Below, piece by piece: positions 15,210 through 40,694 of a stretch of DNA of 50,509 nucleotides; the stretch's first letter is position 1, and each line of letters begins with the position of its first letter. The notes beneath the pieces were generated by a model, which did not search any database, was not told the DNA's origin, and was given only the letters and a program-made list of their open reading frames with translations. A program made the translations under genes and the position numbers. The stretch spans positions 1-50,509 of the forward strand of contig JAAXHO010000207.1 of NCBI GenBank assembly GCA_012270795.1. The letters run 5' to 3'. This DNA is from Candidatus Poribacteria bacterium. GTDB taxonomy: Bacteria; Poribacteria; WGA-4E; WGA-3G.

Positions 15210-15728
15210 TTATTGGGTATCATTTAGAGCTAGTGGTAGTGGCAATTTGTTCAAGGTCCAACTACCATCGGAATTTTTACTGGCAGAAAAATATTTTTTC
15301 TTGGCAGGGTCAAAATCTTTGTAATCTTGTACTACTATGTGACCAACATTTATTTGAGCAACAGTTGAGTTAATTATCATTTTAAAATCGTTGGAATGTT
15401 GTCTGCTTGTTGTCCTCCCACTCATTGCCACTCCAGCCACAGGATAGGTACCCGAAGGTGTTTTTACAGTACCCTCGTGAAAACCGGCACCATTCTCAAA
15501 TACGTAAAATATGAAATCAAAACTAAAGTCTTCGTTGTTAGCAACATAACGACAACCCTCCCCTGGTTTCAACTTCAATCCAAGAGTACAAGGTTTTATT
15601 TCTTTTATCCCCAGCAGTTTAAGCGTAGAGGGCACTTTGCTACCACACCCTGCAAGGAAAATTGATGTAAATAACAAGATTGGTAAGGTCAAGCAAAGGG
15701 ATTGTTTAACGTTCTGATTGAATCTCAT
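15210..15728 (-). CDS. predicted lipoprotein of unknown function
   Basis: A 172-residue protein with a lipoprotein signal peptide: hydrophobic core LTLPILLFTSIFLAGC, with the lipobox Cys expected to be acylated after cleavage. The start is ATG 15728 because the ATG five codons upstream overlaps the ribosome-binding site AGGAGG. The mature part is beta-rich with no family I recognise, and it carries two Cys besides the lipobox (PCTLGL and GCRYVANN). Neighbouring genes give no clear functional hint. Confidence 0.7.
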   Translation of the reverse strand: MRFNQNVKQSLCLTLPILLFTSIFLAGCGSKVPSTLKLLGIKEIKPCTLGLKLKPGEGCRYVANNEDFSFDFIFYVFENGAGFHEGTVKTPSGTYPVAGVAMSGRTTSRQHSNDFKMIINSTVAQINVGHIVVQDYKDFDPAKKKYFSASKNSDGSWTLNKLPLPLALNDTQ

Positions 15729-34508: not shown

Positions 34509-35561
34509 ATGAAAACTTACGGTTTTGGTATCATAGGCTGTGGAATGATTTCAGATTTTCATTCCGCTGCGATTTCCGATTTAGAACACGGGCAGTTAGT
34601 TGCTGTGAGTTCCCGCAATCCTGACAATGCAAAACGACTCACGGATAAGTACAATGTTCAAGGTTATACCGATTACAATGAGATGTTGCAACGAGACGAC
34701 CTTGATATTGTTTGTGTTTGCACACCCAGTGGCGCGCACCTTGAACCTGCTGTTGCGGCAGCAAACGCGGGTAAACACGTGATTGTTGAAAAACCGTTGG
34801 AAATTACGCTTCAACGGTGTGATGAAATTATTCAAGCTTGCGATGAAGCAGGCGTACGATTATGTGCAATATTTAATTCTCGTTTCACTGAAGGCGCGCA
34901 ACTTATCAAAACCACGATTGATAGCGGACGTTTCGGCAAGTTAACCTTAGGCAGTGCATACATCAAATGGTATCGTTCCCAAGAATACTACGACAGTGGC
35001 GGTTGGCGCGGCACATGGGACCTTGACGGCGGTGGAGCACTTATGAATCAATCTATACACGCCATTGACCTGTTGCAGTATTATATGGGACCTGTTCAAT
35101 CTGTTCAAGCATTTACCGATACGTTGGCACATGACCGTATTGAAGTAGAAGATGCTGCTGTGGCTGCCCTTCGTTTTGAAAATGGGGCATTAGGAGTCAT
35201 TGAAGGTACAACCGCTGCCTATCCTGGCATGTTCAAAAAAACCGAAATCTGTGGTACAAAAGGCACTGCAACTTTAGAGGAAGAGGACATTGTTATATGG
35301 CAGTTTGATCCTGAACTTCCTGAAGATGCAGATATTCGTGAAAAGTTTGCACAAAAGACAGATTCGGGTGGCGGCGCATCGGATCCGCGCGCAATCAATA
35401 ATGACAATCACCGTCGTCAGATGGAAAACTTTATCATTGGTCTTGAACACGACGAATCCCATTTGGTTGATGGGCGCGAAGGGCGTAAAGCGGTTGAAAT
35501 TATCCTTGCAATTTATCAATCAAGTCGTGAAGGTCGTCCCGTTGAATTACCTCTCTATTAG
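34509..35561 (+). CDS. Gfo/Idh/MocA family oxidoreductase
   Basis: 350 residues with an N-terminal Rossmann fold (GFGIIGCGMISDFHSAAI) and the EKP motif in HVIVEKPLEI. The C-terminal sheet domain contains GGWRGTWDLDGGGALMNQSI with the conserved GGG and following HAIDLL, where His is a likely catalytic residue. The family acts on sugars, inositols and amino-sugars; the substrate is unknown. It is a canonical full-length member, unlike the shorter relative at 7708. AAGGA precedes the ATG. Confidence 0.93.
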   Translation: MKTYGFGIIGCGMISDFHSAAISDLEHGQLVAVSSRNPDNAKRLTDKYNVQGYTDYNEMLQRDDLDIVCVCTPSGAHLEPAVAAANAGKHVIVEKPLEITLQRCDEIIQACDEAGVRLCAIFNSRFTEGAQLIKTTIDSGRFGKLTLGSAYIKWYRSQEYYDSGGWRGTWDLDGGGALMNQSIHAIDLLQYYMGPVQSVQAFTDTLAHDRIEVEDAAVAALRFENGALGVIEGTTAAYPGMFKKTEICGTKGTATLEEEDIVIWQFDPELPEDADIREKFAQKTDSGGGASDPRAINNDNHRRQMENFIIGLEHDESHLVDGREGRKAVEIILAIYQSSREGRPVELPLY

Positions 35562-35591
35562 TGAAACTCATTGGCTTGCAATTTATAATAC

Positions 35592-35778
35592 TATAGTAGA
35601 TTATACAATTAATTCTACATTCTGAGTTGTAGGAGCGACCCAGGGAATGCCAAAAGGCATTCATACCGTTGATTTCTTGGTCGCGATCGGGGGTCGCTCC
35701 TACAGAAGAGAACGCACGGTCGCGACCGGAGGTCGCTCCTACAGAAAAGGTGTATAATTATTTCAATAATTCACCATA
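35592..35778. repeat. palindromic element, family B copy 2 (left flank of a two-gene segment)
   Basis: Ends TATAGTAGATTATACAATTA on the left and a related AATTATTTCAATAATTCACC with CATA on the right match family B. The interior carries GGTCGC/GCGACC palindromic modules, including the 49-bp core 35679-35727. An inverted copy lies at 37825-38036. Confidence 0.85.
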
Positions 35779-35808
35779 AATAACCCTAATGTTTCTATAA
35801 ATAGTTTT

Positions 35809-36774
35809 CTATGGATAGTCGAACACAATTTTAATGGCTTCGTCTTTCTTGTGTAGTGCCATTTCATAACCTTTTTGTGCTGCTGTGAACGGCAGATGAT
35901 GCGTGATAATCGGTGAGACATCCATGCGTTCTTGTGCAATCATATCCATTGCTAATGGGAAATCGTTCTGCACATCTGGACTGACAGAACCGATGAAGTT
36001 GATGTTTTTCCTGAAGAACTCGGCAAAGTCAAAATTGTATACTTCATCATCTGGAACACCAAATGCAAGGAGTGTACCACTACGTTTCAGCAGTTTTAGA
36101 CAAGTGTTGATTGTCTCTGTCTGATGGCCAACAACTTCAATGACAAGGTCTGCCATTCTACCATCGGTAATCTCACGGACAGTAGTAACTAAGTCTTCGT
36201 TTGCACAGTTGATCGTGTGTGTTGCCTTCATCTGTTTAGAAATCTCAAGTCGGAAATCTACCATGTCTGTAGCAATGACAGTTTTTGCACCAAGATTACT
36301 GATCATGTGACTAAATAACAAACCCATCGGCCCTTGCCCTAAAATCACCACATCCAAATTGAGAAGATTTCCCAATTTTCGGCATGCCCAGACGACTGTG
36401 CCAAGTGGCTGCGCCATTAGGATACAATCTTTTCTGTGGTACTCAACCAAAGGTACAGTCACGCTTTCATCGGAAAGGAAATATTCTGAGCAACCACCAA
36501 TTTGTCGTGGGAGTGCAAGCACCTCATCCCCTGTTTTGAACCTTTTTGACTTGCTTTCGGTAACAACGCCAATAGCCTCGTGTATGGACAAACCAGGTCG
36601 TTGAGGATAACTGTCTGTCGGTTGTTCTAGGACAAAAGATGGCATATCACTTCCGCAAATTGCACTATGAAGTGTTTTTATAATCACAGTGCCGTCTGGA
36701 TAATCTTCCAAATTCGGTTTATCTATATCAACAATCTCAATATGATGTGGTGCAACAATTTGCCCCGCTTTCAT
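35809..36774 (-). CDS. medium-chain dehydrogenase lacking the structural-zinc lobe
   Basis: 321-residue alcohol-dehydrogenase-family protein. AICGSDMPSF keeps the catalytic-zinc cysteine, and GLSIHEAIGVV keeps the His-Glu pair of the GHE motif. The Rossmann motif is VVILGQGPMGLLF. The four-cysteine lobe that binds structural zinc is absent, which explains the shorter length compared with the protein at 9777. The substrate is unknown. AAGGAG precedes the ATG at good spacing. It lies with the next gene between inverted copies of the family B repeat. Confidence 0.88.
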   Translation of the reverse strand: MKAGQIVAPHHIEIVDIDKPNLEDYPDGTVIIKTLHSAICGSDMPSFVLEQPTDSYPQRPGLSIHEAIGVVTESKSKRFKTGDEVLALPRQIGGCSEYFLSDESVTVPLVEYHRKDCILMAQPLGTVVWACRKLGNLLNLDVVILGQGPMGLLFSHMISNLGAKTVIATDMVDFRLEISKQMKATHTINCANEDLVTTVREITDGRMADLVIEVVGHQTETINTCLKLLKRSGTLLAFGVPDDEVYNFDFAEFFRKNINFIGSVSPDVQNDFPLAMDMIAQERMDVSPIITHHLPFTAAQKGYEMALHKKDEAIKIVFDYP

Positions 36775-36827
36775 AACTGCTCCTTTTTGTTCTTAACAAT
36801 TTCTTTCTGGAATATATATATATAATT

Positions 36828-37796
36828 TTACATTGAAGATATGACAGATAAAACCTGTTCATGTAACGTTCCATTTGTTGCAACGACACCTCTATTTTCA
36901 GTCATACGTCTACCGCTCAGAAGGTTAAGGGGTTTTCCATTTGCATCAGTAACTTTCCCACCCGCTTCTTCAACAACGATTAGTCCTGCGGCGTGGTCCC
37001 ATATACATTCGCGATAATCAGGAAACTTTGGATTAGGCAGACGTATATATAAAGCAGCTTCACCGCGTGCGACAATCCCATATTTTGCTTGACTGTCAAT
37101 TTGTATAGGCGACTTATTAAATCCAAGTTGTTTGGCAATTTTATGGTGTGTACTACTATCTCCGTGTGTGGACTCAAAACTTTCTGCTAATCTATAATTA
37201 TTTTCTGATACTCGAATTTTACCTAAATTTCTTCCTTCTAATGTATAAACTACTGTTCCTTTTCCTCTAACAGCCACAAATAGACAACCCCGTTCTGAAT
37301 CAGAGTCGTCTAAACTGAGGGGTAAATTTGGACATCCTAATATACCAAGTTCAACATTACCATCAACTATCCATGCCAATGCAATAGCATATTGATCCTG
37401 TCGCCGAAAACCTTTCGTCCCATCAATTGGATCAAGTGTCCAGAAACTATTGTTGACTACACCCATTCCTCTATCTATCCAATCACAGATACAGGTCCCA
37501 GTAACATTTTCTCCTATGGTACTATTGACATAGTTGGTAACCCTTTTCAGTAGTGATGTATTCTGTTTAAGGGAATTAGCATCTTCTTCGGCAACGATTG
37601 TATCATTTGGAAAAACTTTGGATATTGCTTTACAGATCACTGCTTGGGAACCGTAATCAGCAATGGTGACGGGACTACGGTCGTGTTTCTGAATTGTATC
37701 TGACAAGACCATCTCTGCTTGTACTTGTTTGCAGAGTTCTCCTGCTTTTAAAACAGCCTTAATAGCAACCTGTTTTTTCTTATCGATTATTGTCAT
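36828..37796 (-). CDS. HAL2/CysQ-type 3'(2'),5'-bisphosphate nucleotidase-like phosphatase
   Basis: 322-residue inositol-monophosphatase-superfamily enzyme. The metal sites are visible as VAEEDA and LDPIDGTKGF (with the DGTKGF phrase typical of HAL2 and BPNT rather than IMPase DGT-x-N). The third is CIWDHAAGLIVVEEAGGKVTD. Members hydrolyse 3'-phosphoadenosine 5'-phosphate, a by-product of sulfation, or inositol phosphates. Length and motif spacing favour the HAL2 side. No sulfotransferase is in the window. It is upstream of, and probably transcribed with, the dehydrogenase gene. Confidence 0.88.
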   Translation of the reverse strand: MTIIDKKKQVAIKAVLKAGELCKQVQAEMVLSDTIQKHDRSPVTIADYGSQAVICKAISKVFPNDTIVAEEDANSLKQNTSLLKRVTNYVNSTIGENVTGTCICDWIDRGMGVVNNSFWTLDPIDGTKGFRRQDQYAIALAWIVDGNVELGILGCPNLPLSLDDSDSERGCLFVAVRGKGTVVYTLEGRNLGKIRVSENNYRLAESFESTHGDSSTHHKIAKQLGFNKSPIQIDSQAKYGIVARGEAALYIRLPNPKFPDYRECIWDHAAGLIVVEEAGGKVTDANGKPLNLLSGRRMTENRGVVATNGTLHEQVLSVISSM

Positions 37797-37824
37797 TATA
37801 ATATATAAGGATTAGTATTTATTT

Positions 37825-38036
37825 TATGGTGAATTATTGAAATAATTATACATCTCTTCTGTAGGAGCGACCTTTGGTCGCGATCGGGGGTCGCTCCTAC
37901 AGAAGAGAACGCACGGTCGCGACCAAGAAATCAACGGTATGAATCATGGCGAATACCATGCGCGCATTCGCTCAATAGCATTCCCTGGGTCGCTCCTACA
38001 ACTCAGAATGTAGAATTAATTGTATAATCTACTATA
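37825..38036. repeat. palindromic element, family B copy 3 (right flank, inverted)
   Basis: Reverse-complement relative of 35592-35778, with near-identical outer arms. Its 49-bp core (37876-37924) reads in the opposite sense relative to its arms. A hairpin-forming insertion near 37947-37975 is absent from the other copy. Confidence 0.85.
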
Positions 38037-38078
38037 AATTGCCTGTTGTAACATCAGTTGAATTTCATGTGAGTATTA

Positions 38079-40694
38079 TCATGGTTTACTTGAACTACCA
38101 GTTGTTTTCATGAACTGGATACTTGCTTGGATTAAAGAGTCGGTTGCATTAAATGTCAATTGGTATATAGGTTTGTCCCAACTATATTGATAATCGCTAC
38201 CAAACGCAGAAACACCAATAGGTATATATTCCTCTGGTACGTGAATAAATAATGTGCCCTTTGTGCTCCGTGGCGGTTGGCAAACAATGAGATAACTTTG
38301 ACTGTATTCATCCCATCCTGCAGACAAGATCTCAACACTGCCTTGCATATAATGTATATCTGTTGAAAGCAGTTGGGGTGTCGGTTGTTCTTTTCTGAAA
38401 CATAGCAATTTTGCAGAACGTGGTGCAATATTTAGAAGTGTAACATTCTTGGAAACAACCCCTAAGTATTGTCGCATCCAAAAGTCATGAACAAGGTAAT
38501 CTTTATCTGAATTGAGTCCTGCTGCTTCCAAATTTAGATGTACATCATTTTGTTGGTCCTTCCAGTTAAAGATACCAATTAGGTCCCAAGATTCTCGTTG
38601 TGTGATAACTGGAAGATGCAAAATCTGAGGACAGGGTTCATCAAAATGATCAACCGATGTTGCTGCTATACCAGAGAGTGGGAATAACTTTGCCACTAAC
38701 TCTGCACGTTGAGTAGAAAACATATTCGGTGTATTCGCGCACAGAACAGCAGCTCCGCTCAATGCAGCAGCTGTCATCTCAACTATTGCTTCATTTACGG
38801 GACGTGGTTGATCTACAGTTAACTCTCCATAGATTTGATGCCAAAGGGTATTATGCGAGTTAAGATAACCTGTATACCGACTTAATCTATGTTTGGTTCC
38901 ATTCTGCTGATGCCATGTGTCATTGTTATCTACGTTCTTTTGACGTAATAAGGGATAGTTTAACTGAAAGCTCCCAATACTTGCACATTCAATTACATTG
39001 TATCCAGCAAGTAGAACATCTTTTTTCGTTGACTCTATAACTTCAGTCATTAGACAGATGGCGTGCTGATACAATTCAGTAGATGTAAGTGTTTTCTCAT
39101 ACCACTTTGCATTTGGTGCAACAGCCATCAATCCACAAGTATAACTTGAAAAATCCGCTTTTATTAAGTCAAAACTCCACTCGTTGACTAACTTAGTAAC
39201 GACTTTTCGGATGTGTTTTTGTGCTTCTGGGTGTGATGCGTCCAATATAGTCAGTGCTTTTTCTCTTCCAGGTAAATATACTTCAATAGGTTCATTTACC
39301 TGTGCCTGGTTATGTTTGATTTCTTTGGAATTCGTCTGTGTAGATTTTTTGAAGCGTAAACACGCATCTGGAAACTTTTTAATTAGTTCTGAATTCATAT
39401 CAATACAGAAAGGATCGATACAGATACCGGCTTTAAAACCGTCAGCGTGTAACTGTTCAACTACTGCTGACATACCATCAGGGAAGTCTTCCTTACTCAG
39501 TGACAAATATCCCGCTTCCTGTTGCCAACCGTTTTCTAACTGTATATATTCAATTCCTCCTGAAAGATTCGGATTAAAGATTGGACTTTTGGCAATAAAA
39601 TCAGTTTGCTCTTTGATAGATTTTGCACTAAATTGTTCTTGAATGTTTTCAGTTGAAAAAGTCCAACCAGTTACTGTTTTCTCAGTATCGTCATTCAATG
39701 GTGTATCATTAATTGTAGATATATGTTGAGAGGATTGTAGGGTATGTACCTTGTGTTCTGCAGCAATCCTTTCGGTATAGCGTTCAAGGGAAGTATGTGC
39801 TTCATCTGAGAAATCGAGGTATCCAATCTCTGAAGAAAATGCTTCGCCAGATTGACATTCCATGTTTTCACAATCATTATATAGGGACCATTTTGTTAAA
39901 CCTTGCTGAGTTTTTCGTTTTGGTATTTTGTAGCCAATATGCATACGTGGCCACCACTTTTTGGCAGTAAGGAATCCAAATACAAATGACCTTTTGCTAT
40001 CGGTATCGTATAAAATACCTTCTTGGCATGGTTGTAATGTGTTATCTTGGTTTAATTCGAATCCATCATAGATTTTGTGTCGTACACTTGCACTGGGAGA
40101 AATTGGTGGCATCTTTAATAAAAGATGGTATTGAGAAGGATGTCCCCCTAATTGTATTGAACCATATTGCCCTGAAATATCAATGAGTGTTATATTTGAT
40201 ATTAAGATCGGTTTTGTGTTTGTATTTTCAGCACGTACTTTTAGCAAAATATAGGGGTGATCTGCATAGCAGGTTAGATATGTGTAAATACGGATACCAG
40301 TATCTTCAGAGACATTACTTTTTTCAGTTGTGATTTCTCTTGAAGCACCTTGGGTGGGATGTATATTTTCTTTATCGGTGTTCTTATTTGAAGTGGATTG
40401 ACGCTGCTTATAGGTTGCTATAGTTTCATAAGAAAACTTCAAAGTTTGGGAAATTCCATAAGCATCAGTTTTCATTGGTTCGGTAAGAAATTTCCGATAT
40501 CCATCATCTAATGTCTTTATTGCCGTTCCATCCGACAGATTGATCTGTGTGAAACCGTTTTTTATGATCGTTTTACCAGTTTTATCTTTATAATTCCATG
40601 TGCCCTTTGATAAATTATACTCAATTTGGTATTCTTGATGATTTAAAACGACAAATTCTCCACGACGCGAAACGACTAACTTGTCAAAGTTCAT
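38079..40694 (-). CDS. glycoside hydrolase family 36-like protein (alpha-galactosidase type)
   Basis: 871-residue protein, somewhat longer than the usual 700-750. The TIM-barrel part shows IEYIQLENGWQQEAG, then DFPDGMSAVVEQLHADGFKA and ICIDPFCID. The nucleophile is expected at D514 (K512-A513-D514 in DLIKADF). An N-terminal beta-supersandwich opens with FDKLVVSRRGEFVV, and a C-terminal beta domain follows. GH36 enzymes remove alpha-linked galactose or act on raffinose-type sugars. No signal peptide is visible, so the protein is probably cytoplasmic. I could not place the acid/base residue with certainty. Confidence 0.82.
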   Translation of the reverse strand: MNFDKLVVSRRGEFVVLNHQEYQIEYNLSKGTWNYKDKTGKTIIKNGFTQINLSDGTAIKTLDDGYRKFLTEPMKTDAYGISQTLKFSYETIATYKQRQSTSNKNTDKENIHPTQGASREITTEKSNVSEDTGIRIYTYLTCYADHPYILLKVRAENTNTKPILISNITLIDISGQYGSIQLGGHPSQYHLLLKMPPISPSASVRHKIYDGFELNQDNTLQPCQEGILYDTDSKRSFVFGFLTAKKWWPRMHIGYKIPKRKTQQGLTKWSLYNDCENMECQSGEAFSSEIGYLDFSDEAHTSLERYTERIAAEHKVHTLQSSQHISTINDTPLNDDTEKTVTGWTFSTENIQEQFSAKSIKEQTDFIAKSPIFNPNLSGGIEYIQLENGWQQEAGYLSLSKEDFPDGMSAVVEQLHADGFKAGICIDPFCIDMNSELIKKFPDACLRFKKSTQTNSKEIKHNQAQVNEPIEVYLPGREKALTILDASHPEAQKHIRKVVTKLVNEWSFDLIKADFSSYTCGLMAVAPNAKWYEKTLTSTELYQHAICLMTEVIESTKKDVLLAGYNVIECASIGSFQLNYPLLRQKNVDNNDTWHQQNGTKHRLSRYTGYLNSHNTLWHQIYGELTVDQPRPVNEAIVEMTAAALSGAAVLCANTPNMFSTQRAELVAKLFPLSGIAATSVDHFDEPCPQILHLPVITQRESWDLIGIFNWKDQQNDVHLNLEAAGLNSDKDYLVHDFWMRQYLGVVSKNVTLLNIAPRSAKLLCFRKEQPTPQLLSTDIHYMQGSVEILSAGWDEYSQSYLIVCQPPRSTKGTLFIHVPEEYIPIGVSAFGSDYQYSWDKPIYQLTFNATDSLIQASIQFMKTTGSSSKP

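Follow-up and report, generated by a model that had tools for sequence, protein, structure and literature searches.

How could the interior of a small insertion be turned around exactly while its ends stay in place? The question is raised by two elements, A and B, that lie in the window, the whole 50,509-nt stretch of DNA analysed here (Table 1). This stretch is contig C228 in a draft genome (G000; 5.18 Mb, 298 contigs, 95% complete); this host genome is a Candidatus Poribacteria MAG, and related loci in public genomes likewise come from Candidatus Poribacteria MAGs. Repeat analysis bears out the sequence-only reading that A and B are inverted relative to each other: their outer left arms are complementary at 59/59 positions (35592-35650 and 37978-38036), and 35712-35780 pairs with 37823-37891 as inverted arms at 90% over 69 nt. 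Within these inverted elements sits a direct repeat of 51 nt, 100% identical (35677-35727 and 37874-37924). The 49-bp core lies inside it; string comparison finds the two cores exactly the same on the plus strand, and their bounds, GGTCGCG and CGCGACC, had been read correctly. Aligned arm to arm, one core is thus the exact reverse complement of the other, as had been claimed. Besides the core, A and B differ in a hairpin outside it that is longer in B, and the right arms show four base differences. The description of both as palindromic elements stood in part: they are built of inverted repeats, but as nested hairpins rather than as simple palindromes. Predicted single-strand folding is strong in both (z -7.4 for A, -6.2 for B).

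Table 1. Features of elements A and B in the window
Feature	Position	Strand	Basis or remark
Element A, MITE-like insertion	35592..35778	+	direct reading, repeat analysis, family alignment
Outer inverted-repeat arm of A, TGTAGGAGCGACC	35628..35640	+	repeat analysis
Hairpin module of A, GGGAATGCC...GGCATTCATACCGTTGATTT, short form, left of core	35641..35678	+	
Core in A, GGTCGCGATC...GGTCGCGACC, in the standard orientation with respect to the ends of A	35679..35727	+	string comparison
Outer partner arm in A, on the right, GGTCGCTCCTACA	35731..35743	+	repeat analysis
Element B, same family as A	37825..38036	-	TA-flanked, core opposite relative to its own ends
Outer inverted-repeat arm of B, TGTAGGAGCGACC	37860..37872	+	repeat analysis
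Core in B, plus strand identical to core of A, hence reverse-complemented relative to ends of B	37876..37924	+	
Same hairpin module in B, long form	37925..37987	-	
Outer partner arm in B, GGTCGCTCCTACA	37988..38000	+	repeat analysis

The ends proposed for the elements coincide with TA dinucleotides that border the insertions. Element A carries TA at 35592-35593 and 35777-35778 and has imperfect terminal inverted repeats (TATAGTAGATTATA... and ...AATAATTCACCATA). The family to which A and B belong was assembled from 102 retrieved and oriented copies, or about 100 copies out of 123 right-end matches. The outer edges are TA in 64/70 cases on the left and 68/71 on the right, and the family ends form imperfect inverted repeats (TATGGTRRATTAT... 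and ...ATAATTCACCATA). The copies are numerous and non-coding with short terminal inverted repeats, the properties of MITEs, and TA at both ends together with empty sites in relatives is the pattern of a TA target duplication. Judged by sequence, both insertions are mini-transposons, flanked by TA and non-autonomous, with the layout of Tc1/mariner/IS630-style MITEs, a superfamily in which ISY100 is a studied bacterial element (PMC2170065). They share with such MITEs the TA at both edges, the short imperfect terminal inverted repeats, the lack of coding capacity and the high copy number, but differ in that the draft genome yielded no autonomous element whose ends match theirs. The search there for DDE transposases yielded three PF13358 (DDE_3) fragments only, none with matching ends alongside. 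We found no published description of this family, or of Poribacteria MITEs, in the open-access literature. Right ends of the family number at least 123 in this genome and 3 in its relative G009, a disparity that points to a recent burst. At locus L047 (around position 15670 of G000:C139), a single copy is preceded by about eight tandem units of ATTTATGGTAGATTATACAA, which are repeated left ends of the family.

Element A is flanked by convergent genes for a GFO/IDH/MocA oxidoreductase and a zinc-type dehydrogenase. The neighbours of element B are an inositol-monophosphatase-type gene and one that weakly matches Melibiase and glycosyl hydrolase family 31. Within 34509-40694, the dehydrogenase and monophosphatase genes are neighbours across most of the genus. 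The closest genome compared, G009, is collinear here at about 92% identity and lacks both insertions, with a few bases at the site of B and about 70 unrelated bases at the site of A. The two genes that separate A from B are oriented as they are in G009, so the elements have not inverted this segment. Using a composite of G009 flanks as query, we recovered G000 counterparts for many sites with the GGAATGCC module; no element was present in both genomes among the orthologous sites compared (about 38/46). Since neither A nor B is inserted in G009 and the two genomes have no other compared site in common, the comparison of the two genomes showed no locus in both orientations. Hairpin elements at sites L201-L228, many of them TA-edged, are almost entirely non-shared between the two genomes, each compared site being filled in one and empty or otherwise occupied in the other, so the turnover of small palindromic elements appears to be very fast.

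The interior of the elements contains inverted repeats nested at two levels, with arms of 8-10 bp around the core and of 13 bp around the interior. The whole interior is bounded by the 13-bp arms TGTAGGAGCGACC and GGTCGCTCCTACA, and the core by copies of a 10-bp palindrome, GGTCGCGACC, one copy of which carries a T in A and B. Across the family the interior is modular: the 13-bp arms enclose one or two such palindromes and an asymmetric core with the consensus GGTCGCTCCTACAGAAGAGxCCGCAC. A second hairpin module, GGGGAATGCC...GGCATTCATACCGTTGATTT, is often present inside (249 module matches genome-wide), and both the order and the orientation of modules differ widely among copies. The orientation of the 49-bp core of A and B is meaningful because this core is asymmetric: it matches its own reverse complement at 26/49 positions, and at 8/29 once the palindromic ends are removed.

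The sequence between two inverted-repeat arms is exactly inverted between A and B, the pattern expected of hairpin-loop (inverted-repeat spacer) inversion. The alignment score of the A and B interiors rises from 55.5 to 86.5 when the core of B is inverted in silico. Among the copies retrieved, the core nearest to that of B is the core of A (51/51), the second best matching at 43/51. The two arms that bound the core differ at a single T/C mismatch (GGTCGCGATC versus GGTCGCGACC), and this mismatch moved together with the core between A and B, which places the exchange point in the outer 8-10 bp (GGTCGCGA; TTGGTCGCGA with the flanking TT/AA of B). The GGAATGCC module lies on the same side in A and B, and its unchanged position separates a flip of the core only from a flip of the whole interior. 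A versus B is, as far as the alignments indicate, the sole pair that isolates a core-only flip.

Aligning the retrieved genomic copies, along the lines that the sequence-only reading had proposed, revealed both orientations among paralogous copies, rather than at one and the same locus: relative to the element ends, the asymmetric core is in the standard orientation in 40 copies and inverted in three (B, L071 and L002), and inversion of the whole interior gives a better match to another copy in 10/53 interiors. A fourth candidate for an inverted core, L066, was dropped for its poor match (8 edits). L071 scores better against 27/27 standard copies once its core is flipped in silico, and none of the 27 standard copies is improved by core inversion. 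We first counted L071 as a core-only flip; inversion of the whole interior accounts for it just as well, since its outer parts are close to symmetric. Clear whole-interior flip pairs are L109/L062, L002/L041, B/L043 and L004/L032. The score of B against L043 rises from 7.5 to 80.5 after whole-interior inversion of B, and that of L002 against L041 from 65 to 84 after the corresponding flip. Both orientations thus occur in more than one copy lineage, with several pairs for the whole interior and one clear case for the core only. As other copies show both core and whole-interior orientations, the inversion appears to be more than a single ancient event.

We consider it probable that the short inverted-repeat arms (8-13 bp) have repeatedly flipped the DNA between them, through template switching or arm-to-arm recombination. 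The element would become single-stranded, or form a hairpin or cruciform at replication; the nascent strand would then switch to the facing arm and return, or recombination would take place between the arms. The loop would emerge inverted, and the arms would tend toward identity. Between A and B, only the core would have flipped, by an exchange within the outer 8-10 bp; in other copies, the whole interior would have flipped between the 13-bp arms. A parsimonious history would start from an L043-type copy, pass by a whole-interior flip to the layout of B, and reach the layout of A by a later core flip. This mechanism fits best because the breakpoints lie in inverted repeats of differing length, at two nested levels and with no single fixed site, because the arms covary, and because no serine recombinase domain was found in the 95%-complete genome. 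The variable triplets of the two arms are identical in 24/34 copies, where shuffling gives a mean of 16.1 (p about 1e-4). Such covariation is expected from template switching, which homogenises arms; it may also stem in part from the shared ancestry of the copies. Repeats of 8-10 bp are short for RecA-type homologous recombination and suit polymerase template switching across a hairpin. We infer template switching from these patterns, with arm-to-arm recombination as a close alternative. The flips would then be a neutral mutational by-product of closely spaced inverted repeats, for which no function is needed.

The pattern of A and B, taken alone, fits a flip in cis and a gene conversion in trans alike. 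In the latter, A would have donated its core to B, or B to A, through misalignment, the palindromic GGTCGCGACC ends letting the cores pair as direct repeats 2.2 kb apart. The two cores are 51/51 identical on the same contig, and the palindromic ends offer short homology in either alignment. However, the left arms are equally identical (59/59), so the similarity of the cores is not unusual, and the whole-interior flips on other contigs need no nearby partner; conversion between A and B does not account for those other copies. We regard conversion in trans as unlikely.

It is more doubtful still that A is a chimera formed without any flip, with a B-like copy supplying the left half and a standard copy the right half, joined at the shared palindrome. 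The modularity of the family, with its many module orders, would accommodate such a joint. A donor in the standard orientation with the rare core variant (GATCGGGGG, AACGCAC) would be required, and none occurs among the copies retrieved, where the next best core reaches 43/51.

Conservative site-specific inversion, in which a recombinase would act on the palindrome GGTCGCGACC as in an inverton-like switch, is given slightly less credence. The palindrome does stand on both sides of the core, and the genome holds three matches to the tyrosine recombinase domain (PF00589). All three, however, are on other contigs, and none is found beside the invertible DNA. The serine recombinase/resolvase domain PF00239 has no match in the 95%-complete genome, whereas the same search was positive in 10/14 control genomes, which makes a serine invertase unlikely. 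Sequences other than the palindrome, namely the 13-bp arms, bound flips as well, and the ratio of orientations is strongly skewed, at 40:3. Promoter-like matches in the region from A to B are at chance (9 found, 7.6 expected), and the core contains none, so the switched promoter or coding sequence of a phase-variable inverton was not seen. We hold it no more probable that GGTCGCGACC is the symmetric recombination site of a host enzyme, by which the mini-elements would be actively shuffled and nested segments inverted or deleted in living populations. Among the three mechanisms that the first reading had put forward, template switching (or arm-to-arm recombination) fits best, gene conversion is unlikely, and site-specific inversion is improbable given the missing PF00239 domain and the flips at differing arms, although the three tyrosine recombinase matches leave an enzyme a small chance.

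Least probable of all is an artefact of assembling repetitive palindromic DNA from a metagenome, for although the draft is in 298 contigs and A and B have long identical stretches in common, inverted states appear on several separate contigs (L071, L002, L109/L062) and misjoins would be needed at repeats of 8-10 bp, which are shorter than the usual assembly k-mers.

Template switching or recombination between short arms has counterparts in other systems. In Wolbachia, copies of the insertion sequence ISWpi1 are flipped through TIR-TIR recombination at 9% of loci (PMC3004938). There, as in the 10/53 interiors found here, a mobile element has had the segment between its inverted repeats turned around; ISWpi1, in contrast, is a complete IS with 23-bp TIRs, compared between strains at the same locus, whereas the present element is short and non-coding, has nested arms of 8-13 bp, and is compared among paralogous copies only. 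The published IS inversions are ascribed to recombination rather than to template switching (PMC3004938). In yeast genes, template switching inverts spacers and homogenises arms longer than 9 bp (PMC8604942), and E. coli quasipalindrome mutations arise by template switching at short inverted repeats (PMC7202029). The exact inversion of a spacer between short perfect arms that are kept identical is common to those cases and ours; their spacers are a few bp, whereas our core is 29-49 bp and the whole interior longer. Minute inversions of hairpin loops are common in chloroplast genomes, with loops of 4-27 bp (PMC6824564, PMC2903610). They resemble the present flips in that a hairpin loop in non-coding DNA occurs in both orientations, recurrently and homoplasiously, but they concern single orthologous plastid loci instead of a multi-copy mobile element in a bacterium. 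The loops reported from chloroplasts and yeast (about 2-27 bp) are shorter than the core of 29-49 bp. The family of A and B is a further case of the known flipping of inverted-repeat loops, with longer loops and two nested levels, in a bacterial MITE-like family.

The genome holds about 100 copies of a single nested hairpin, with arms that measure about 8 to 13 bp and flips at two levels; the family could serve as a natural data set on the flipping of bacterial DNA by short inverted repeats and on how the arms of such repeats stay identical. Orientation inside such elements is an unreliable phylogenetic marker, and simple alignments misread the flips as clusters of substitutions. Related hairpins recur elsewhere in the genome. 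The GGAATGCC...CCGTTGATTT module occurs in long and short forms (L034, L062, L088 and L109), and these four loci include nested versions with additional inner hairpins, such as those around GAATGCGCGCATGGTATTCGCC. Another palindrome family, also abundant, has CTACCG ends (GGTCGCGACCGGGAGGTCGCTCCTACCG) and the centre GGTCGCGACC in common with the present one; the shared pattern has 306 matches in the genome.
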